DNA from: a virus
Length of the DNA: 20,273 nt
Strand: one strand, 5' to 3'
IMG/VR virus record: IMGVR_UViG_3300042542_005395
Span: 1 to 20,273 of that record
The position numbers and the translations under genes are program-made. The notes beneath the pieces are model-generated. The model made no database searches. It saw nothing but the letters and a program-made list of their open reading frames with translations, and was not told the origin of the DNA. Position 1 is the first letter of the stretch, and each line of letters opens with the position of its first letter. Below are positions 2,540-20,157 of the stretch, one piece after another.

Positions 2540-3709
2540 ATGGCCTTATATATTACACAAGAACCAGATATAGTAAGTTTAGCACAATCACCAATGCCAA
2601 TCACATTGGAAGAAGATACTGCAGTAATAACTTCATCTTCTTTTCAGTATGTTTTAGATTTATACTATTGGAGTGGTGGCCCTGCAGATTCAGGTTCATC
2701 AAAATACACATTAGTTAAATACCCGAACGAAAGTGGTGTTGGTATATTTGATATAAGTAGAATACTAAACTCTACACTTACCGATTTATTACAAACGAAC
2801 CCATCCAATGTAAAGTATGCAAAGGGAGTTGGGTATTGGGAATATTTATCAGGTTCAAATTATGTAACTGGTTCACAAAAGGTTGAAACACAATTAGTAA
2901 GGTATTTAGATGGATACCAATTATTTCCAGAACCTATTGGTGAATTTATATACGAAATGACACCACACTGGCCGTTGATGACATCAGGTCCAGCAACACA
3001 ATCAGTATTTATAGATGATATAAGTAATGCAGGTGTATTCACTGGTTTATATGATTTTAGTAGTGAGAGAGCAGCCAAGATAGTTTATTCATCAAGTATT
3101 CAAACTGGTGAGTATTTATTATACACTGGTTCTTTAACAAGTGAGCAAATAAACCCATATCCTAATGCACCAAATGATGCAGGATTTCCATTATCAGGTT
3201 CTTTTGATTCATATACTATACAAGCATATTCTAATCTTGGTAATCCATTAGGATTTCCTTTAAGATACAATATAATTTGTAATCAAAAGTATCCAAATAT
3301 ACGAATCAAATGGAAAAACCGATTTGGTCAATTTGATTCATTTAACTTTAACATGATTAACACAAAAAGATTTGATGTTAATCGTTCACTTTATCAACCA
3401 CAAATTGGTTCATGGGGTGGAACATCTTTAGGATATGCTAATTACGAAAGTAATAATCTAAACTATATGGTGGATACAAAAGAAAGTATCCAAGTGAATA
3501 CTGATTGGGTAGTTGAAGAATATAACGAAATCTTCAAACAACTTTTGGTAAGTGATGAGATATATTGGATATATGATATAGTAGAATATGAAGTAAAACC
3601 TTTAACTATAAAAACATCTAATCTTACTTTTAAGACTGGTGTAGTAGATAAAGTAATTCAGTATGCATTTGAATTTGATTATGGCCAAACTTACAAACTT
3701 GTAATCTAA
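2540..3709 (+). CDS. Tail structural protein, beta-rich (function not assigned)
   Basis: A 389-aa protein rich in Ser, Gly, Tyr and Asn, with no signal peptide or membrane segment. A run of predicted beta strands includes FQYVLDLYYWSG (about residues 36-47), GIFDISRIL and the block YPNIRIKWKNRFGQFDSFNFNMINTKRF around residues 252-280. The RIKWKNRFGQFDSFNF phrase recurs in uncharacterised structural proteins of Bacteroidota phages, next to tail-hub genes. The protein follows the neck genes and precedes the hub-type protein, whose ATG overlaps its stop by one base. It may be the tail tube protein or a baseplate component; its length is above that of most tube proteins, so a distal-tail role is at least as likely. 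A 53-nt A/T-rich gap with no clear promoter precedes it. Confidence 0.55.
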   Translation: MALYITQEPDIVSLAQSPMPITLEEDTAVITSSSFQYVLDLYYWSGGPADSGSSKYTLVKYPNESGVGIFDISRILNSTLTDLLQTNPSNVKYAKGVGYWEYLSGSNYVTGSQKVETQLVRYLDGYQLFPEPIGEFIYEMTPHWPLMTSGPATQSVFIDDISNAGVFTGLYDFSSERAAKIVYSSSIQTGEYLLYTGSLTSEQINPYPNAPNDAGFPLSGSFDSYTIQAYSNLGNPLGFPLRYNIICNQKYPNIRIKWKNRFGQFDSFNFNMINTKRFDVNRSLYQPQIGSWGGTSLGYANYESNNLNYMVDTKESIQVNTDWVVEEYNEIFKQLLVSDEIYWIYDIVEYEVKPLTIKTSNLTFKTGVVDKVIQYAFEFDYGQTYKLVI

Positions 3710-5831: not shown

Positions 5832-7208
5832 ATGGCAGTAACTAATAAAATATTCATTCCAACATTTATCTCATCTATAAATTATGAACCGGTGAGAACA
5901 CTTCCCCATTTGTATTTCTACAATGGGTTGAAGGAGAGTGAAGAGTATTTTATACAACACTACCCAAGTGGTAGTACAAGTTCTATTGTAAATTCATCAC
6001 AAACATCATTTCCATATCTTGATTATTATGATGGGTTGACACCTAATAGTTCTTCCAATTCACTCCTATTCTTTAATGAATTACCAGCTTATGGAGAAGC
6101 ACCTACTGGTTCATTATATACTGAATATTGGGATACTTATGTATCCTTATTATATAACCCAAGAACACGATTGTTTAATGCCAGTGCAATAATACCCCTT
6201 GCGGATTATTTTGAGATGGAATTAAACGATATTGTACAATGGAGAGGTAATTACTATCACCTTCGTGCAATAAACGATTACAACTTAAAAGATGGTACTT
6301 GTAAGATAGAACTATTAGGTCCAATCATTAGAGATGCAGTTAGTGAAGAGGTACCACCAACACCACCTATTAGTAATTGTATATTTAATTTCAGTTCTTC
6401 GGTTGAACCAGTTGTTACCACAACAACAACTGCAGCACCTACTACAACTACAACCACTGCAGCACCAGTTGAAAATTGTACGGCTTATGTAGTTGGTACA
6501 AGAACAGGTGCATCATTCTTCTTTACATATAGAGAATGTGGTACTGGAATTTTAAGAACTATATCAATAAATCAAAATAACAGAGAATGGTATTTTTGTG
6601 GAGCTGTAACATCTGCACTCCCACCTTGGGGTTATGCGAATGAAATCGGGCCTTGTAGTGAACCAATCCCAACTACTACAACTACAACAGCAGGACCTAC
6701 AACAACTACTACTGCTGCACCAACTACAACTACAACTACAATAGGATGTACATCTTGTGCAAGTTATACTATTGGAGGTTCATTAGGTGTTAATGGTACT
6801 TGGGGATATACAAATTGTTTGACTGGAGTAAGTGAAACTGTTGGAATTACATCACAAGTAATAAGAACAGTTGCTAGTAGAACTGCACCAGTTAAATTAT
6901 CAGGTACTGGTACTGCAAGTGTTACAAATGTATTTACATTCCCAGCAGGATATAATTGTGGCCCATTTGATTTTTGTAAAACTGAAACTTGGAGAATGGT
7001 TACAAAAGATAGACAAAGCCCTCCTGGTTTTATATTAACACAATACTACAATCCAACTAATTGTCAAGTACAAACAATCGCATTATCTAGTGATGCATCA
7101 ACTTATGATATTAGTGTCATATCAGGTTCGTTAACATTAGGAGGTCCAACTTCTGTTCTAGCATCAATAACACTCTTATCAACTGGTAGTAGTTCTTGTT
7201 GTTTGTAA
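5832..7208 (+). CDS. Tail-tip protein: hub C-terminal-type domain plus mucin-like linkers and Cys modules
   Basis: A 458-aa mosaic. Residues 1-170 look like the C-terminal end of a Bacteroidota tail-hub protein: LPHLYFYNG, SFPYLDYYDG, SLLFFNELPAYGE, YVSLLYNPRTRLFNA and LNDIVQWRGNYYHLRAINDYNLKDGTC. Residues 194-212 and 278-304 are Thr-rich linkers with AAP/AGP punctuation. Between and after them lie small beta-type modules bounded by cysteines (about 216-276, 306-376 and 382-458), including FFFTYRECGTG and TWGYTNCLTG, which look like copies of one motif. The chain ends in SSCCL. The N-terminal domain probably docks on the hub from the preceding gene, 11 nt upstream, while the Thr linkers hold the modules out for adsorption. 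Thr-rich linkers are likely O-glycosylation targets of the enzymes encoded two genes downstream (inference). Confidence 0.65.
   Translation: MAVTNKIFIPTFISSINYEPVRTLPHLYFYNGLKESEEYFIQHYPSGSTSSIVNSSQTSFPYLDYYDGLTPNSSSNSLLFFNELPAYGEAPTGSLYTEYWDTYVSLLYNPRTRLFNASAIIPLADYFEMELNDIVQWRGNYYHLRAINDYNLKDGTCKIELLGPIIRDAVSEEVPPTPPISNCIFNFSSSVEPVVTTTTTAAPTTTTTTAAPVENCTAYVVGTRTGASFFFTYRECGTGILRTISINQNNREWYFCGAVTSALPPWGYANEIGPCSEPIPTTTTTTAGPTTTTTAAPTTTTTTIGCTSCASYTIGGSLGVNGTWGYTNCLTGVSETVGITSQVIRTVASRTAPVKLSGTGTASVTNVFTFPAGYNCGPFDFCKTETWRMVTKDRQSPPGFILTQYYNPTNCQVQTIALSSDASTYDISVISGSLTLGGPTSVLASITLLSTGSSSCCL
6411..6740 (+). repeat. Threonine-codon (ACN) repeat tracts, first tail-tip gene
   Basis: Two stretches of near-pure ACN codons (about 6411-6467 and 6663-6743) encode Thr runs broken by Ala-Ala-Pro or Ala-Gly-Pro. 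ACA, ACT and ACC alternate, so the DNA is not a perfect trinucleotide repeat. That suggests the Thr-rich protein is kept by selection rather than produced only by recent slippage. Confidence 0.85.
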
Positions 7209-7226
7209 AAATAAATTATATAAAAT

Positions 7227-8417
7227 ATGGCAACCGAAATAAGAAAAATAACATTAACTGAATATAACAATTTGAGTGGTCCTGCATATAGTGTGCAATA
7301 CTCTACTGATTGTATTACATATTCTCAATCTATGGATTGTACTAATTTATTTTTGGCAGGAGTTGGTTCTTTTGGTTTTTGTACCGTTGATGAGGATACT
7401 ACTTGTATTCGTTTGACATCTATTAATTCTCCTTGTACTAATTCAGTTGTTGAAGATTTAACACCTACAACAACTACTACTACAAGTACAACTACAAGTA
7501 CAACTACTACTTCTACAACAAGTACTACAACTACTGCAGCACCAACTACAACTACTACTTCTACTACAAGTACAACTACTACTTTAGCACCTACTACAAC
7601 TACTACAAGTACTACAACTACTCTGGCTCCTACAACAACCACGAGTACAACTACTACTACAGTTGCACCAACAACTACAACTACAACGGTAGAACCAACA
7701 ACTACCACAACAACTACATTAGCTCCAACTACAACAACTACAACTGCAGAACCAACTACAACAACTACAACAACCACAACTGCTGCTCCAACAACTACAA
7801 CTACAACCGAACCATGTGTTGATTGTTTTGTATATACTTGGCAAAATGTAACTGGCTCAGTAGTTGGTATTGGAGGACGAAATTGTAATGGATTTGATAC
7901 ATGGAGTTTCAATACTGACCCTTCTACATCAGGTAGTACTCCTTGTGCAAGACAATTTAGTGCACAACAAATAACTGATTATGCAAATTTAGGTCTTAAT
8001 ATAATATCATCTGCTTCTTGTGGAAATAGTTGTATACCTACTACAAGTACAACAAGTACTACAACTGCAGCACCTTCAACACTTTGTTATGAAATAGAGA
8101 CCGTACAAAGTTCTCAAGGTGAATGTTTTGATTGTCCTGGTTTCTTTGCAAGTACAACTGATACTATACTACATATCTTTGATATTTGTAGTGGTAGTGA
8201 GATATTCCCACCAGTTGATATATTTGTTGAAACAAGATATAGTGATAATTCAACATCAAGTTTATTGATACCATCAGGTTCTACTGGTAGTTTGATTATT
8301 GCTACAAGTGATGTACAATGTGTTGCACCTCCTACTTGTGGTGAAATTGCAAGTCCAACATTTGTAAGTGCGAGTATAGTAGCATTGACTGGAAGTATTA
8401 GTCAATGTTGTGTGTAA
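7227..8417 (+). CDS. Mucin-like Thr-rich tail-tip / adhesion protein
   Basis: A 396-aa protein with four zones. Residues 1-78 form an N-terminal domain with Cys at 29, 38, 52, 60 and 70. Residues 79-196 are a very long linker with roughly 80 Thr, occasional Ser, and punctuation by AAP, LAP, VAP, VEP and AEP every 6-12 residues. Residues 197-268 are a Cys-bounded module (CVDCFVYTW to SCGNSC). After a second, short Thr linker, residues 285-396 form a C-terminal domain that ends in SISQCCV, echoing the SSSCCL end of the upstream gene. Composition matches a mucin-type stalk, rigid and extended if glycosylated. It follows the hub genes by 18 nt and is followed 15 nt later by a glycosyltransferase gene. 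It has no signal peptide, so a virion rather than an exported role is favoured. I know of no named family for the whole protein. Confidence 0.6.
   Translation: MATEIRKITLTEYNNLSGPAYSVQYSTDCITYSQSMDCTNLFLAGVGSFGFCTVDEDTTCIRLTSINSPCTNSVVEDLTPTTTTTTSTTTSTTTTSTTSTTTTAAPTTTTTSTTSTTTTLAPTTTTTSTTTTLAPTTTTSTTTTTVAPTTTTTTVEPTTTTTTTLAPTTTTTTAEPTTTTTTTTTAAPTTTTTTEPCVDCFVYTWQNVTGSVVGIGGRNCNGFDTWSFNTDPSTSGSTPCARQFSAQQITDYANLGLNIISSASCGNSCIPTTSTTSTTTAAPSTLCYEIETVQSSQGECFDCPGFFASTTDTILHIFDICSGSEIFPPVDIFVETRYSDNSTSSLLIPSGSTGSLIIATSDVQCVAPPTCGEIASPTFVSASIVALTGSISQCCV
7461..7814 (+). repeat. Long ACN-codon tract encoding the 118-residue Thr-rich stalk
   Basis: About 354 bp of nearly continuous ACN codons, with interruptions encoding Ser (AGT) in the first half and Ala-Pro or Glu-Pro in the second. 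A shorter relic lies at about 8038-8073. The mixture of ACA, ACT and ACC means only local slippage-prone runs. Length is likely to vary between related phages. On the opposite strand the same tract reads as a long Val-rich open frame, which is an artefact. Confidence 0.9.
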
Positions 8418-9371: not shown

Positions 9372-9886
9372 AATCAAAAATAGTACATAGTGAAAATCCA
9401 ATAGAACATTGGAGTGATATATCAAATGTTCAGGGTAAAATTGTAATGGATTTAGGATGTGGTTGGTTGTTTCAAGACCACGAATCAACACCTGAATATT
9501 TTATTAATAGAGGTGCAGAATTACTAATTGGAGTAGAGGCAGCATGTGGTGAAATAGAAAAACTAAAAGAACTATTCCCTACTCATACTTTTGTTTGTAA
9601 AACTATTTTATCAACTGATGATTTAATCCAACTTTTTACTGAATACAAACCACAAGTAATAAAGATGGATATAGAAGGTTACGAAAGTGTAATAGAAAAT
9701 ATGGATGCATCACACTGGGAATCTATTGAAGAGATAGGTGTAGAGTATCATAACCCTACTTGTAAATCTATATTAGAAACTAAATTAGTAGAATTTGGAT
9801 TTGAAATAACAAATCTAAATCAGTTTGGTTGGTTTTGTACCGATACAAACATCATGGGAATATTACACGCAAAAAGAAAAATATGA
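9359..9886 (+). CDS. FkbM-family SAM-dependent methyltransferase
   Basis: A 175-aa Rossmann-type methyltransferase. Motif I is KIVMDLGCG (residues 27-35, SAM-binding Gly-rich loop). The acidic end of the next strand is probably E60 (LLIGVEA), and IKMDIEGYE (residues 101-109) is the signature post-core strand of the FkbM family (usual form hKhDhEG.E). FkbM enzymes O-methylate sugars, and in phage and surface-polysaccharide loci they often accompany glycosyltransferases. The protein is shorter than many FkbM members (about 200-270 aa), lacking N-terminal additions. It overlaps the upstream glycosyltransferase by 13 nt and the downstream one by 4 nt (ATGA), which argues that the three act as one unit, capping or modifying a glycan. 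Confidence 0.85.
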   Translation: MSEIKSKIVHSENPIEHWSDISNVQGKIVMDLGCGWLFQDHESTPEYFINRGAELLIGVEAACGEIEKLKELFPTHTFVCKTILSTDDLIQLFTEYKPQVIKMDIEGYESVIENMDASHWESIEEIGVEYHNPTCKSILETKLVEFGFEITNLNQFGWFCTDTNIMGILHAKRKI

Positions 9887-13248: not shown

Positions 13249-14235
13249 ATGAATTACTTAGAAGAAGATTTACAATTATTTGAACTCGTAGTAGATGCTG
13301 ATGAGGATGGCGTTTTTGCAAATTCGTTCGTGGAAGAACCTGCTATAGAAAGAGATTTCGTATTTTTTAACAAACATAAGGAAGTAACATTCCAAGCAAT
13401 TGATACTGAAAAGAGATTGGTTGCTGGACCACTTTTAATCCCGAATAAGAAGATTATTCGTATGGATGAACAAATGGGTATGTATAATGTTTTCTTCAAA
13501 CCAGAGACAATAGAAACCATTGCTAGAAAGTTCATGAAGAACAAGTATAATGGTGAAGTGACAGTAGAACATGATAAAAAAGTAAATGGTGTATATCTTA
13601 CTGAATCATGGATTATAGAACAAAGTTCAAAAGATAAGAGTAATCTATTTGGATACACATTACCGAAAGGAACTTGGTTCGGTATATATAAGGTAGATAA
13701 TGATAAAGTCTGGGAAGAAGTAAAAGCCGGAAAGTATCGCGGATTTTCGATTGAAGGTATCTTCGAACACAAAGCATCTACAATGAAATCATCACAATTA
13801 TTCAGTAAGGATATAGATGAGTTAAACGAGAACGAAGCAGATGTGATACTATCTATGATAAAAAATCTTGTAAAAAAAGATTTAAGATATAAAAAAAAAG
13901 AACGGATTTTAATGGAATCCTTTTCGGATTATCCTGATGATGTTAAGAACAATGCCAAGAATGTATTGGAATTCGTTGACAGAAATGGATGGGGTTCATG
14001 TGGCACTCCTGTTGGGAAGCAGAGAGCTAACCAATTGTCAAAGGGTGAGCCTATCTCGCTTGATACAATCAAAAGAATGTATTCCTATTTATCAAGACAC
14101 GAAATCGACCTCGAAAATAGTAAAACTTATAGTGATGGATGTGGAAAACTAATGTATGATGCGTGGGGCGGTAAGAGCGGATTATCTTGGAGTAGAAATA
14201 AATTAAGAGAATTGGGAGAATTAGGAGATGAATAG
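13249..14235 (+). CDS. XkdF-like phage head maturation protease with extra C-terminal domain
   Basis: A 328-aa protein. Residues 1-175 match the XkdF/S78-related serine protease family: VEEPAIERDFVFF, TVEHDKKVNGVYLTESWIIEQ (H108 as candidate catalytic His), the PKGTWFGIYKVDNDKVWEEVKAGKYRGFSIEGIF block and S167 in GFSIEG as candidate nucleophile. Such proteases cleave scaffold and capsid proteins during prohead maturation. Residues 226-318 are a separate domain (VLEFVDRNGWGSCGTPVGKQRANQL, ISLDTIKRMYSYLSRHE, YDAWGGKSGLSWSRNKL), a known accessory module in phage head proteins. A Lys/Asp linker encoded partly by an A9 run (13891-13899) joins them. The gene lies after the tape measure, away from the portal, which is an unusual position. 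It overlaps the next gene by 8 nt. Confidence 0.8.
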   Translation: MNYLEEDLQLFELVVDADEDGVFANSFVEEPAIERDFVFFNKHKEVTFQAIDTEKRLVAGPLLIPNKKIIRMDEQMGMYNVFFKPETIETIARKFMKNKYNGEVTVEHDKKVNGVYLTESWIIEQSSKDKSNLFGYTLPKGTWFGIYKVDNDKVWEEVKAGKYRGFSIEGIFEHKASTMKSSQLFSKDIDELNENEADVILSMIKNLVKKDLRYKKKERILMESFSDYPDDVKNNAKNVLEFVDRNGWGSCGTPVGKQRANQLSKGEPISLDTIKRMYSYLSRHEIDLENSKTYSDGCGKLMYDAWGGKSGLSWSRNKLRELGELGDE

Positions 14236-14554
14236 TAATTCAGCACACAAGAAATTAGTAGAACTTGCACCAGTAGTTCCATTCTCTGAATTTGAAAGAG
14301 TTCTAAAAGAAGAAGCAACACCATCTAATCCAGTCAAAGTTGGTTGGATTACAAAAGAAGGAAAGAATAGATACTACTTCATGTATTATATCGATGGCCC
14401 CCTTGGTGATGGAATTAGTGGTGGCACGGACACTAAAGCAGCAGAAGGTATGGTCAATATACCAGTAATAGGGTTAAGAGGAACTTGGAGAACACTCACT
14501 TGGGATACTGTATATAAATTTAGATTCAATAATAAAACTTATAGAGTAGCTTAA
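14228..14554 (+). CDS. Small unknown late protein (108 aa)
   Basis: This protein starts inside the end of the protease gene (8-nt overlap), so it belongs to the late operon. Residues 1-30 are helical (LVELAPVVPFSEFERVLKEEA). The rest is beta-rich (VGWITKEGKNRYYFMYYIDGP and GTWRTLTWDTVYKFRFNNKTYRVA), perhaps a small barrel with a Gly-rich loop (GDGISGGTD) between. I do not recognise the family. Its stop codon overlaps the stop codon of the minus-strand homing-endonuclease-like gene by two bases, as if that element inserted exactly at its 3' end. Virion or assembly roles are possible from context only. Confidence 0.65.
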   Translation: MNSNSAHKKLVELAPVVPFSEFERVLKEEATPSNPVKVGWITKEGKNRYYFMYYIDGPLGDGISGGTDTKAAEGMVNIPVIGLRGTWRTLTWDTVYKFRFNNKTYRVA

Positions 14555-15096
14555 AGTTTAAAGTTTATTACATAACCACCAGTTGTTTTTCGTTGGCCAT
14601 TACAAACCATTGATATTTTACTAGTATCTAATTTAAGATGTAGTGCACATTCATGACCTGAATTGTATTCGCCAACAAAAGTTCCATCTTTTTTGTATAC
14701 TAAAACTTTTTTTCTTTTAAGTTTACCCATTTTACTATAATGTCCTTTTTCTCGTAGGATTTGTACACTTGCTTTACCACCTAAACTACGAATTGATTTT
14801 AGTTGACCTGATTCTACATTTTTCATACCACCTTTTTTACGGCTTTCTTTTGTTGCTATCTTTACAGTCTTGTAATAAGGTTTATTATCTACTTTATATC
14901 CATACTCCTTTTGTAATTCTATTTCTCTATTAGATGCAATCATTATATCAGTATGAGTTTCAAGAATCTCGTATTCAGTATAACCTTGATTTTGAACTCT
15001 TATTTTAGCATCTTCTTCTTCGGTGCATCCAATTTTACCAATCCTTCCATCTTTATGAACGAAGGTTGGTATGTGGTAGATATAGTATTTTTTCAT
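14551..15096 (-). CDS. GIY-YIG-like homing endonuclease with NUMOD1 domain
   Basis: A 181-aa protein on the opposite strand from the late operon. Residues 3-66 look like a divergent GIY-YIG nuclease core: YYIYHI for GIY, RIGKIGC for YIG, an Arg at about 33, and E58 or E60 (NREIELQKEYGY) as candidate metal ligand. The middle is basic with NUMOD3-like SGQLKSIRSLGGKASV. Residues 130-178 form a NUMOD1 helix-turn-helix (VLVYKKDGTFVGEYNSGHECA to NGQRKTTGGYVINF). Free-standing homing endonucleases spread by cutting alleles that lack them. It has its own promoter with a full Bacteroidota consensus (15119-15150), consistent with an independent mobile gene. The C-terminal 50 residues are about 60% identical to those of the gene at 19690-20157. 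Confidence 0.75.
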   Translation of the reverse strand: MKKYYIYHIPTFVHKDGRIGKIGCTEEEDAKIRVQNQGYTEYEILETHTDIMIASNREIELQKEYGYKVDNKPYYKTVKIATKESRKKGGMKNVESGQLKSIRSLGGKASVQILREKGHYSKMGKLKRKKVLVYKKDGTFVGEYNSGHECALHLKLDTSKISMVCNGQRKTTGGYVINFKL

Positions 15097-16187: not shown

Positions 16188-16214
16188 ACACATCCCCAAA
16201 AGATGTGTTTTTTT
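16188..16214 (+). terminator. Second, tandem intrinsic terminator
   Basis: Stem ACACATC/GATGTGT (16188-16194 with 16202-16208), 7-nt loop CCCAAAA, followed by a run of T through 16214. It is placed about 45 nt after the first terminator. Together they insulate the late operon from the early promoter region downstream. Confidence 0.85.
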
Positions 16215-16228
16215 ATGCAAAAAATAAT

Positions 16229-16247
16229 CTACTTGATTATCAAGTAG
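16229..16247. promoter_or_regulatory. Perfect inverted repeat, candidate operator
   Basis: CTACTTGATTATCAAGTAG: 8-bp arms around a 3-bp centre, located 35 nt upstream of the -33 element of the promoter at 16282. There is no T run, so it is not a terminator. Size and symmetry fit a dimeric repressor or activator site. Directly after it lie two copies of AAAATAGTTG (16252-16261 and 16264-16273, 12 bp apart), which could be further binding sites. Confidence 0.5.
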
Positions 16248-16604: not shown

Positions 16605-16633
16605 TTTATGGAATTCTGGATTTGTTATATTTA
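16605..16633 (+). promoter_or_regulatory. Possible promoter for the structured RNA
   Basis: TATATTTA at 16626-16633 fits the -7 element TAnnTTTG at 7 of 8 positions. A -33 element is weak (TTTATGG at 16605-16611). The predicted start near 16640 would fall exactly at the 5' foot of the first hairpin of the RNA element (16642), which supports it despite the poor -33 match. Confidence 0.45.
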
Positions 16634-16639
16634 TCTATA

Positions 16640-16737
16640 CAAGATGTGTGGTAGCATCTAAAAGAAATATGAACTATTAAGTTCAAACCCACCGAGAATA
16701 AAGTAACTACCACTACTTTGTTCGGAGTGGGTTTTTT
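16640..16737 (+). ncRNA. Structured leader RNA or small RNA with kissing loops and terminal hairpin
   Basis: Three hairpins lie in about 98 nt. H1 is AGATG/CATCT (16642-16646 with 16655-16659) with 8-nt loop TGTGGTAG. H2 is TGAACT-ATTA-AGTTCA (16670-16685). H3 has outer stem AACCCA-CCGA/TCGG-AG-TGGGTT (16686-16695 with 16722-16733), inner stem AAAGTA/TACTTT (16700-16705 with 16714-16719) and 8-nt loop ACTACCAC. GTGGTAG in loop 1 is exactly complementary to CTACCAC in loop 3, so a 7-bp kissing interaction is possible. H3 runs into T6, an intrinsic-terminator shape, 8 nt before the ATG of the DUF4373 gene. Two tiny frames lie within (MCGSI at 16644-16661, MNY at 16669-16680). It could be an attenuator, a ligand-binding leader or a free small RNA; I do not recognise the class. 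Confidence 0.6.
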
Positions 16738-16744
16738 ATTTATT

Positions 16745-17296
16745 ATGGAAAACAAAAATTATTTTACTCACGATTATCGTAGTAGGTTAGATACGAAATT
16801 GTTAGAGGTTAGAATGAAGCACGGAATGGAAGGTTTCGGTGTTTATTGGGGATTAGTAGAGATGTTGCACGAAGGTAATGGAACAATACAAATGAAACCA
16901 GATGTTATTGCTTATGAATTTCGTTGTAATGTTGAATTAGTTAAAGATATAGTTAGTATTTGTTTTGAACGAACTGAAGATGATTTAATTACTTGTAATA
17001 GAGTAATGGAGAATTTGAGGATTAGAAAAGAAAAGTTTGAGTCAAAAAGTGAAAAAGGTAGAGATGCAGCAAATAAAAGATGGGGTAAGGATAGGTCACC
17101 TATGGGTGATGTATGGGTAGATGATGGGTTTGGTATGGGTAATCATGCTAAAGAGAAAGAGAAAGAGAAAGAGAAAGTAAAAGAGATAGATCTTAAAATA
17201 GATAGTATAAGTGATCTTACTAGCACACCAACACCTTCTTTTGCTGAATTATTTTATCAAGGAGTATCAGCAGTAGATTATATAAAAAACAAATAA
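16745..17296 (+). CDS. DUF4373-type (Lin1244/Lin1753-like) phage replication protein
   Basis: A 183-aa protein from ATG 16745; an upstream TTG at 16718 lies inside the terminator hairpin and is rejected. Residues 4-95 carry the DUF4373/Lin1244 winged-helix-like domain: KNYFTHDYRSRLDTKLLEVRMKHGMEGFGVYWGLVEMLHEG. The family is found at the N-terminus of phage replication initiators and DnaD-like proteins. A NKRWG segment follows, then a Lys/Glu linker (residues 136-147), and the protein stops after about 35 more residues. The usual longer C-terminal DnaD/primosome domain is missing, so this is a short version. The leader contains the structured RNA, suggesting control of replication-protein synthesis by attenuation. 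Confidence 0.7.
   Translation: MENKNYFTHDYRSRLDTKLLEVRMKHGMEGFGVYWGLVEMLHEGNGTIQMKPDVIAYEFRCNVELVKDIVSICFERTEDDLITCNRVMENLRIRKEKFESKSEKGRDAANKRWGKDRSPMGDVWVDDGFGMGNHAKEKEKEKEKVKEIDLKIDSISDLTSTPTPSFAELFYQGVSAVDYIKNK
17152..17177 (+). repeat. GAGAAA hexanucleotide tandem repeat inside the replication gene
   Basis: About four copies of GAGAAA in frame encode the alternating Lys-Glu linker. Because the unit is six bases, changes in copy number lengthen or shorten the linker by two residues without frameshift. Such Lys/Glu linkers are common in this protein family. Confidence 0.7.
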
Positions 17297-17801: not shown

Positions 17802-18407
17802 ATGAAACAAATAGCAAACTACCCCCAGTACAAAGTATCTACTGATGGCACGGTCATTTCCTACAAAGGTTTAGAACCAAGAGTTCTTAAACCTCAGTTA
17901 GTATCCCAATCACAAAAGAAGTATCTTGCAGTTGGTTTATTTAACGAACACAATAGAAGAAATAATAGAGGTGAAAAAGTTCCAAAGTTTCATTACATCC
18001 ACAGATTAGTATACGAAACTTACATGGGACAAATACCAGAGAAATTAGAAGTAGACCACATAGATGAAAACCCACACAATAATAAATTAGAGAATCTACG
18101 ATTGGTTACACCTAAACAAAATGCAAGAACTTATTTCAGAAAAGAAAAAGGATTCTTGTATAGTGAGAGTAGAGATGAGATGTTAAAGGATTACCTTACT
18201 CTTAAAAATTATAGATTAGTTGCAGAAAAGTGGGGATGTGGTTTGGCAACTGTATCTCGGGTAATCAAGAACAAAAGATATGTGAATAATGTACTGAGAG
18301 AAAGTGAACCAGGAATAAAAGATGAATTTACACAAACTGATTTTAGAGATAGTAAATTCAGACAGAAATACAATTTACCATCAACATCAGAATGGAAAGG
18401 AAAATGA
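17802..18407 (+). CDS. HNH homing endonuclease with NUMOD4-like N-terminus
   Basis: A 201-aa protein. Residues 1-48 form a NUMOD4-like module (IANYPQYKVSTDGTVISYKG, then a K-P-Q stretch and YLAVGLF). The HNH_3-type nuclease core is at 64-108: H67 (YIHRLVYETYMG), D85-H86 (LEVDHIDENPHNNKLENLRLVT), N94 and N98, all catalytic or metal-binding positions present. Residues 142-168 look like a helix-turn-helix (YRLVAEKWGCGLATVSRVIKNKRY). Such genes are mobile and cut target DNA lacking them; in phages some also influence exclusion of rivals. It follows a strong terminator and overlaps the next gene by ATGA, so it is integrated into the early operon. It looks intact. Confidence 0.88.
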   Translation: MKQIANYPQYKVSTDGTVISYKGLEPRVLKPQLVSQSQKKYLAVGLFNEHNRRNNRGEKVPKFHYIHRLVYETYMGQIPEKLEVDHIDENPHNNKLENLRLVTPKQNARTYFRKEKGFLYSESRDEMLKDYLTLKNYRLVAEKWGCGLATVSRVIKNKRYVNNVLRESEPGIKDEFTQTDFRDSKFRQKYNLPSTSEWKGK

Positions 18408-19135: not shown

Positions 19136-19675
19136 ATGAATGAAAACTTGGAACTTAAACGAAGAATTGAGGTTTTGTATAAGACACACTATATCTGGTT
19201 ACTACAATCTGCAAAGAATATAACAAAGAATAATTTAGAAGCAGAAGACCTGATAGGTGATTTAATGATTTATCTATTAGAAAAAGGAACACCAAAGATT
19301 TACTATAAGGATTCTATAAATACGATGTATTGTTATCGGTATTTACAAACTAGATGGATAAACAAAATAGTAAAACACAATAAGGTTAAAATAACCGATA
19401 ATAAATTCCAAGAACCATTAGATGAAGTTTATTCTTATGAAGAAGATGAACGAATAATGGAATCATTTGATTTAGTTCAAGAAGAACTCCAAAGATTAAC
19501 AACAACTCGAGATTGGCCAAAAGTAAAGTTATTCCAATTGTATTACGATTCAGATGATACGATGTTGGAAGTAGCAAACAAAATAGGAATATGTAAATCA
19601 ACTATGTTTTCAAATATAAAGAAGATACGTCAACACCTGAAGACAACTTGTCCCAATCCATTCGTTGTAAAATAA
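19136..19675 (+). CDS. Sigma-70-like RNA polymerase sigma factor (phage-encoded)
   Basis: A 179-aa protein with the layout of a small sigma factor. Residues 8-50 resemble region 2 (RRIEVLYKTHYIWLLQSAKNITKNNLEAEDLIGDLMIYLLEKG; the AEDLIGDLMIYLL segment matches the 2.1-2.2 helix that binds the beta' clamp). An aromatic YCYRYLQTRWINKIVK follows at 65-80 (2.3-2.4 position). Residues 128-168 contain a region 4-like helix-turn-helix (PKVKLFQLYYD, TMLEVANKIGICKSTMFSNIKKIRQHLK). Phage sigma factors redirect host polymerase to late promoters. No late promoter of its own is visible in this window. Alternatively it may be a sigma-like small DNA-binding protein. It abuts the previous gene without a gap. 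Confidence 0.7.
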   Translation: MNENLELKRRIEVLYKTHYIWLLQSAKNITKNNLEAEDLIGDLMIYLLEKGTPKIYYKDSINTMYCYRYLQTRWINKIVKHNKVKITDNKFQEPLDEVYSYEEDERIMESFDLVQEELQRLTTTRDWPKVKLFQLYYDSDDTMLEVANKIGICKSTMFSNIKKIRQHLKTTCPNPFVVK

Positions 19676-19689
19676 AAATACAAAAGGTT

Positions 19690-20157
19690 ATGAAAAAATA
19701 TTATGTGTATGAACTAATCAACTTATATGGAACGGTTGAAGATGTGGGTGAAAGTTATAGACCTAATGTAAGATATAGAGAACATATCTATACAAAACCA
19801 AGAGAAAAATATCATGGTGTTGGCAAGTACTATGGCAGACAAGATTTGGTAATGAATATAGTTGCAGAGTTTGATACAAGAAAAGAAGCAAGAAAGTTGG
19901 AAACTGAATTAAAACTATCGTATGGATTAGAACCAACTGAATTAAATAGAACTATAAACACTGCCAAAAGAAATGAAGAAATAAAATCAAAATCAGTTTT
20001 AGTATATAAAAAAGATGGAACATTTGTAGGTGAGTATTCATCAAGAAGTGAATGTGCCAGAATTCTACAATTAGAACAAAGTAGTGTAAGTTCAATTTGT
20101 AATGGTAAATTAAAATCAACTCGTGGTTATATTATAAAAAACAAAGTAAATGCCTAA
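19690..20157 (+). CDS. GIY-YIG-like homing endonuclease with NUMOD1 domain (second copy)
   Basis: ATG 19690 (155 aa) is chosen over a frame extension inside the sigma gene. Residues 3-76 look like a divergent GIY-YIG core: YYVYEL, DVGES, RYREHIY, and E71 (RKLETELKLSYGL) as candidate metal ligand. Residues 102-150 form a NUMOD1 helix-turn-helix (VLVYKKDGTFVGEYSSRSECA to NGKLKSTRGYIIKNK), about 60% identical to the end of the minus-strand gene at 14551-15096. DNA identity is high over the first 41 bases of that module (19996-20036 versus 14666-14706, opposite orientation). It overlaps the next gene by 8 nt, so it inserted between the sigma-like gene and a gene further right. Confidence 0.75.
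   Translation: MKKYYVYELINLYGTVEDVGESYRPNVRYREHIYTKPREKYHGVGKYYGRQDLVMNIVAEFDTRKEARKLETELKLSYGLEPTELNRTINTAKRNEEIKSKSVLVYKKDGTFVGEYSSRSECARILQLEQSSVSSICNGKLKSTRGYIIKNKVNA

Follow-up and report, generated by a model that had tools for sequence, protein, structure and literature searches.

The CI RNA of P4 has relatives in the CA RNA of N15 and the c4 RNA of P1/P7. CI RNA is described as coming from the leader of the replication operon, being complementary to other parts of that same leader and being tied to premature transcription termination (PMC4825925). It is processed, acts in trans with seqA and seqC as its targets, and serves prophage immunity. The same source presents IsrK of prophage Gifsy-1, where a promoter, a short RNA, an intrinsic terminator and a read-through messenger share one locus as they appear to do here; IsrK differs in activating translation of the read-through RNA in trans, and kissing between a 5' hairpin and the terminator loop is not among the IsrK features described in the passages on it (PMC4825925). 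In the leader RNA reported here, as in the CI type, one segment is complementary to another part of the same leader, namely the loop of a 5' hairpin (H1) to the loop of the hairpin preceding the gene (H3). Unlike in P4, the H1 loop pairs with the apical loop of the predicted intrinsic terminator in which the leader itself ends, and the RNA occurs in lytic phages in up to three orthogonal copies per genome. Two flanking target sites of the CI type were not found in these leaders, the conserved complementarity being the single pair of H1 loop and H3 loop.

Attenuators of the pT181/pIP501 plasmid type combine mutually exclusive stems with an antisense RNA from the opposite strand. They share with our locus a replication-initiator leader with a terminator, predicted in our case, that would limit expression, whereas antiterminator pairing was not found in 15 leaders examined here. 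The rep leader pseudoknot of IncB/IncIalpha plasmids activates translation near the start codon; there too a leader hairpin loop pairs with a distant segment ahead of the replication gene, but in our leaders the pairing partner is the terminator loop. The ColE1 kiss joins two RNAs from opposite strands, RNA I and RNA II, by full-length pairing of 7-nt loops; such full-length pairing is also seen in L027 and L067, although in our leaders both loops lie in one transcript. The pRNA of phi29, likewise a phage RNA with two mutually complementary loops and little sequence conservation, pairs between molecules to form the ring of the packaging motor. By contrast, the present RNA ends in a predicted terminator in a gene context of replication, not packaging, and its linker mostly allows intramolecular pairing.

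The broad kind, a structured phage leader RNA with a terminator, is known; the distinguishing feature is the conserved kiss between the 5' hairpin and the loop of its own terminator, which matches no family tested. The first-pass annotation had recognised no known class, and indeed Rfam 15 gave no match at or above the gathering threshold in the window (the whole 20,273-nucleotide stretch analysed, a 20-kb virus record), and 20 related loci likewise matched no family. Searches of the open literature turned up no account of an RNA of this type; both negatives apply to these resources only.

Anatomy of the leader RNA

The element (16642-16737) precedes a Lin1244_N/DUF4373 gene (16745-17296) encoding a putative replication initiator of 183 aa (PF14297, E 1.5e-8), homologues of which are annotated as replication initiation protein; all features of the leader and the gene lie on the plus strand. 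Folded to its minimum free energy (MFE; -32.4 kcal/mol, z = -5.7 relative to shuffled sequences), the element forms exactly three hairpins, H1, H2 and H3. H1 (16642-16659; AGATG, loop TGTGGTAG, CATCT) has counterparts in relatives and is the probable 5' end of the RNA. It is followed by an A-rich linker (AAAAGAAATA, 16660-16669), and many relatives are also A-rich after H1. The small hairpin H2 (16670-16685; TGAACT-ATTA-AGTTCA) abuts H3; counterparts of the TGAAC/GTTCA type are present in L027, L028 and L029 and absent from some family members. H3, the terminator hairpin (16686-16733), is built of an outer stem AACCCAC/GTGGGTT (16686-16692/16727-16733), an internal loop, an inner stem AAAGTA/TACTTT and the apical loop ACTACCAC (16706-16713), and the T6 tract of the predicted intrinsic terminator occupies 16732-16737. 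The kiss comprises 7 bp between GTGGTAG in the H1 loop (16648-16654) and CTACCAC in the H3 apical loop (16707-16713), segments that covary in relatives. The loop pairing with a hairpin between, and the promoter-like box, T6 tract and ATG around it, had all been read from the letters by the first-pass annotation and were all recovered, from the sequence and the MFE fold.

A -7-like promoter element of the Bacteroidota TAnnTTTG type, TATATTTA, is predicted at 16626-16633; no -33 element was recognised. In most of the 21 leaders listed, a TAnnTT[TA][GA] box begins 11-18 nt before H1. The Bacteroidota promoter consensus TAnnTTTG allows a start position to be predicted from the box, and the spacing from box to H1 then suggests that the transcript probably starts at or near H1. 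The start exactly at H1 proposed earlier thus gains support from the box and its constant spacing, while the start itself is a prediction.

The stems and kissing segments are inverted repeats in the DNA as well, and could in principle constitute a protein binding site or an origin that merely resembles an RNA. However, of 15 leaders compared, 12 fold better as the plus strand than as the minus strand (p = 0.003), G-U intermediates are seen, and the T tract is always on the same strand as the gene. A DNA-only element is not supported, and we regard it as very improbable.

A tiny frame, MCGSI, covers H1 (16644-16661), and it had been suggested that its translation could break the kiss; ribosomes on this frame would disrupt H1 and with it the loop pairing. 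The frame does exist, in the window and in the close relative L029, but L027 and L001 lack it and in L028 only ATG-TGA is left of it, although the RNA is conserved in these relatives. With no conserved short frame among these leaders, the translational part of the suggestion is not supported, and a leader-peptide attenuator is hardly credible.

Two more terminator-like hairpins lie upstream in the window (16188-16208 and 16229-16247), one of them readable on both strands. An 80-aa reading frame follows them, and it has a promoter-like TATCTTTA to itself. Farther away, at 5832-8417, a pair of adjoining virion-type genes carries long threonine-rich repeats (PTTTTTT).

A family of leaders with covarying loops

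A nucleotide search of a phage collection with the window region gave no match, single-protein searches for relatives gave few loci, and the genome collection yielded only two relatives. A pattern search with the linker motif returned largely noise, since only 2 of its 135 sites coincided with descriptor matches; inspection of pattern sites by eye revealed more family members. A protein-motif scan of DNA together with an alignment search gave about 100 Lin1244_N loci, many of which have a leader of the same anatomy. The resulting catalogue holds 23 leaders with 21 distinct kissing sequences, among them GTGAGAT:ATCTCAC, GTAGGAG:CTCCTAC, GTAGGCT:AGCCTAC, GTAGCAT:ATGCTAC, GTGGAAG:CTTCCAC, CGGGCAGG:CCTGCCCG and CCGACA:TGTCGG. 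No sequence core is shared among the catalogued members beyond the promoter-like box, the T tract and, in some, the A-rich linker. A ligand-binding riboswitch was considered and rejected because a conserved binding-pocket sequence was not found across members.

The Lin1244_N gene of L001 (53% identity) has a leader that is unrelated in sequence and contains the parts in the same order: the box TATATTTA comes first, then a hairpin whose loop is CCCCTCTTAC, a second and small hairpin, a terminator with the apical loop AGGTAAGAGG, T6 and ATG, with CCTCTTAC:GTAAGAGG as the kiss. H1 of L001 is missing from the MFE fold alone, so MFE folding is not a sufficient test. Pairing kept where sequence similarity fails explains why such RNAs escape standard searches. 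The observation is real: these leaders make up a genuine RNA family, apparently undescribed, in many Bacteroidota-type phages. The RNA is lacking before some Lin1244_N genes, such as those of L030, L032 and L034, and is therefore not indispensable; in L058 an HNH gene comes before Lin1244_N, and a candidate RNA is located upstream of this HNH gene.

In seven further loci (L038, L048, L088, L068, L036, L047 and L066) the 5' end of the leader pairs over 7-18 bases, some in two blocks, with a large terminator loop and shows no clear H1 hairpin, possibly a sister architecture. In the first five the 5' segment is apparently unstructured, and these are taken as possible variants. In L094, a tRNA 3'-half-like sequence CCGGGAGTTCGATTCTCCCGG with a short arm is located within about 70 bases upstream of position 2983, just before Lin1244_N.

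The most direct evidence for the kiss comes from alignable relatives. The RNAs of the cultured Flavobacterium phages hattifnatt9-1, morran9-1, mumin9-1 and snusmum9-1 are near-identical, align unambiguously and were gathered by similarity to one of them. Their kisses are of 8 bp (GTGAGACG:CGTCTCAC, GTGAGAAG:CTTCTCAC and GTGGAACG:CGTTCCAC); three of the eight kissing pairs are altered on both sides and none is broken. Paired combinations fill 99% of the alignment cells, compared with 32-45% when partners are slid, and the stems covary too, with G-U intermediates. Between hattifnatt and mumin, 4 of 16 kissing bases are changed as against 6 of 80 elsewhere. When the window group (A5) was aligned with MAFFT, H1 came out two bases out of register, and counts from that alignment were not used; aligned by hand, the window and L027 differ at three of seven kissing pairs, all three compensated (GTGGTAG:CTACCAC to GTGAGAT:ATCTCAC). 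The phages JQ and phi10:1 have H1-stem, linker and TTGAG/CTCAA scaffolds in common, and their kisses are different. Compensatory loop changes, which the first-pass annotation had named as support for the pairing, are thus present, and the loss of complementarity without compensation that it had named as refutation does not occur in the aligned Flavobacterium phages.

How far chance could produce this complementarity beside an ordinary terminator depends on whether the window or the family is considered. When only the sequence upstream of H3 was shuffled, 0 of 300 shuffles matched the hairpin-loop fit of the window (p about 0.002), and a looser, fold-free test on the window alone gave p = 0.03. 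The single window sequence is therefore only moderately convincing, and it is the family that decides in favour of the kiss. The strict test (hairpin loop against terminator loop, with H3 fixed and the upstream sequence shuffled) gave a combined p of about 9e-18; the product covers the independent leaders that yielded a kiss and omits those lacking a qualifying pair of hairpins. Because of this omission the fold-free test is more neutral; with the -7-like box and the ATG as its anchors, it compares the first 50 nt with the last 10-85 nt for complementarity, and over 27 leaders it gave a combined p of about 1e-13. Ninety-seven other gene starts on the same contigs showed no excess of complementarity (median p 0.6; 9% below 0.05). 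A permutation on the catalogued leaders is partly circular, these having been selected for complementarity, and was not used as evidence for pairing.

Descriptor scans gave a similar picture. In 784 kb scanned on both strands, the top 13 sense-strand matches were all just upstream of a Lin1244_N gene, and two high antisense matches were reverse complements of the same elements. A later, wider descriptor also matched at about 12 other places in 2.4 Mb of strand; a single match to it therefore means little unless position or homology supports it. The earlier judgement that the arrangement is unlikely by chance is thus moderate for the window alone and holds at the level of the family (combined p about 1e-17), where, given also the compensatory changes, chance is already refuted and its remaining probability is close to nil.

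Gene context and multiple copies

In the window and in relatives the RNA lies immediately ahead of Lin1244_N, and in relatives a DnaB or primase-helicase gene comes next. In Flavobacterium, Cellulophaga and Tenacibaculum phages three genes come after it, one of them small, the next initiator-like (DUF6291 in hattifnatt) and the last encoding a primase-helicase; in Muminvirus it is followed by a small gene, a ResIII helicase (PF04851 as annotated) and a DNA primase. L256 has it ahead of two helicase genes, and L251 and L261 have it ahead of homing-endonuclease genes and then a DUF3987 protein. Altogether, five kinds of replication cassette are preceded by the same RNA. The specific link to DUF4373 drawn in the first reading of the sequence is therefore too narrow, since the RNA stands before other replication cassettes and an SSB operon as well.

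Phage hattifnatt9-1 carries three copies, including one before an SNF2-type helicase and one before HNH-SSB, each with its own loop code. Each loop pairs with its own partner at about -12 to -13 kcal/mol, whereas pairing between copies is far weaker. Scans of hattifnatt9-1, JQ and phi10:1 gave no reverse-strand match and none in shuffles. Three orthogonal copies are what is expected of elements required to pair only with themselves; on one long transcript, orthogonal loops would prevent cross-pairing of the copies.

The RNA always adjoins genes of DNA replication or DNA metabolism, and could be a replication element, that is, a primer, an R-loop former or an initiator-bound RNA for which termination merely sets the 3' end. 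Unrelated cassettes and three copies per genome, one of them before HNH-SSB, are a poor fit to a single origin or initiator, and we consider this role improbable.

In hattifnatt9-1 (L123, NC_048832) the annotated start of the gp34 helicase (9441) falls within the terminator hairpin of the leader; an ATG at 9477, past the T tract, is the likelier start. A second small element, (A/C)GGTAATCTT(T/A)AAACC(T/G), follows the terminator near the ATG in L119 (about 3650-3685) and L123 (about 14455-14490). It is common to Flavobacterium and Cellulophaga phages, and its closing pair is compensated from A-T to C-G.

Termination in cis and alternative roles

The leaders have the anatomy of an attenuator: a promoter-like box, a leader, a predicted terminator and a gene. 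The T tract is about 10-25 nt from the ATG in the window and many relatives. No promoter fits into this interval, so the gene apparently must be read through the terminator, which makes a leader or attenuator role likely. A classic attenuator with mutually exclusive stems was rejected: in 15 leaders neither terminator arm has upstream complementarity beyond chance, and so no competing partner. Since the kiss uses loop bases only and the arms lack an upstream partner, terminator and kiss are compatible; this absence of competition is a point against the cis-acting reading set out next. The linker is long enough for an intramolecular kiss in most members, and looks short in L075 and L090 if the stack is straight and the pairing intramolecular.

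We favour a cis-acting leader in which a terminator locked by the kiss limits or gates early replication operons, and assign this reading a probability of roughly 0.55. Transcription from the TAnnTTTG/A-type promoter would probably begin at H1 and often end at H3, the two hairpins being joined by the kiss of their loops. The H1-H3 fold would most likely set the frequency with which RNA polymerase halts ahead of the replication genes, and stopping would release a compact RNA of about 95 nt with a hairpin at either end. The RNA is thus probably a brake on replication-gene expression. The fold, the kiss and its covariation, the placement, the strand, the loop codes of multiple copies and the lack of an antiterminator partner are computed from the genomes; use of the promoter, termination and its regulation, and a strengthening or regulating effect of the kiss on termination are what these features suggest.

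The product of termination may instead act in trans, the free small RNA that the first-pass annotation had offered beside an attenuator. The loops of the terminated H1-H3 RNA would then pair with leaders being transcribed from the same phage, or with another target, and alter termination, so that copy number or superinfection would be controlled; the RNA would resemble P4 CI RNA or plasmid counter-transcripts but come from the same strand as its target. Such an RNA would be short and stable-looking, with hairpins at both ends, and its kissing loops vary among same-host phages between nearly identical flanks, as expected of specificity determinants. P4 offers a precedent, in that its replication genes are controlled by an RNA that their own leader gives rise to (PMC4825925). 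Against this, the partner of each loop is in the same molecule, which would leave the free RNA mostly self-paired; carriers of the Muminvirus group are described as lytic (PMC7077304), which does not suit prophage immunity; and three orthogonal copies per genome suit action in cis better. With the anatomy also favouring the leader, a trans-acting RNA appears unlikely.

More tentatively, the leaders could represent an undescribed class of phage RNA device, pseudoknot-locked terminators that occur several to a genome with orthogonal codes and gate replication operons whatever the cassette. On this reading the loop codes may also determine how specific copy-number or superinfection effects are among related phages; we consider this broader proposal somewhat less likely than not. 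The timing of replication genes in Bacteroidota phages is poorly known, and the cis-acting leader offers a concrete candidate for an RNA control point across phages with unrelated replication machinery, with cultured Flavobacterium, Cellulophaga and Tenacibaculum phages among its carriers. If the kiss tunes termination, it would make a small regulatory part of orthogonal type, for which nature supplies many loop codes on scaffolds that are alike.

Endonuclease genes recur around these RNAs. The window contains two GIY-YIG-like genes, recognised by eye and alike at their C-terminal ends (14551-15096, minus strand; 19648-20157, plus strand), and an HNH_3 gene close to the replication gene (17802-18407, plus strand). 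Differing homing-endonuclease genes (GIY-YIG or HNH) directly follow the RNA terminator in L251, L261, L220 and the L123 copy at 13398. The RNAs of L251 and L261 are nearly identical, yet different endonuclease genes follow them, as if the terminator end of the RNA were a preferred insertion site for such genes.
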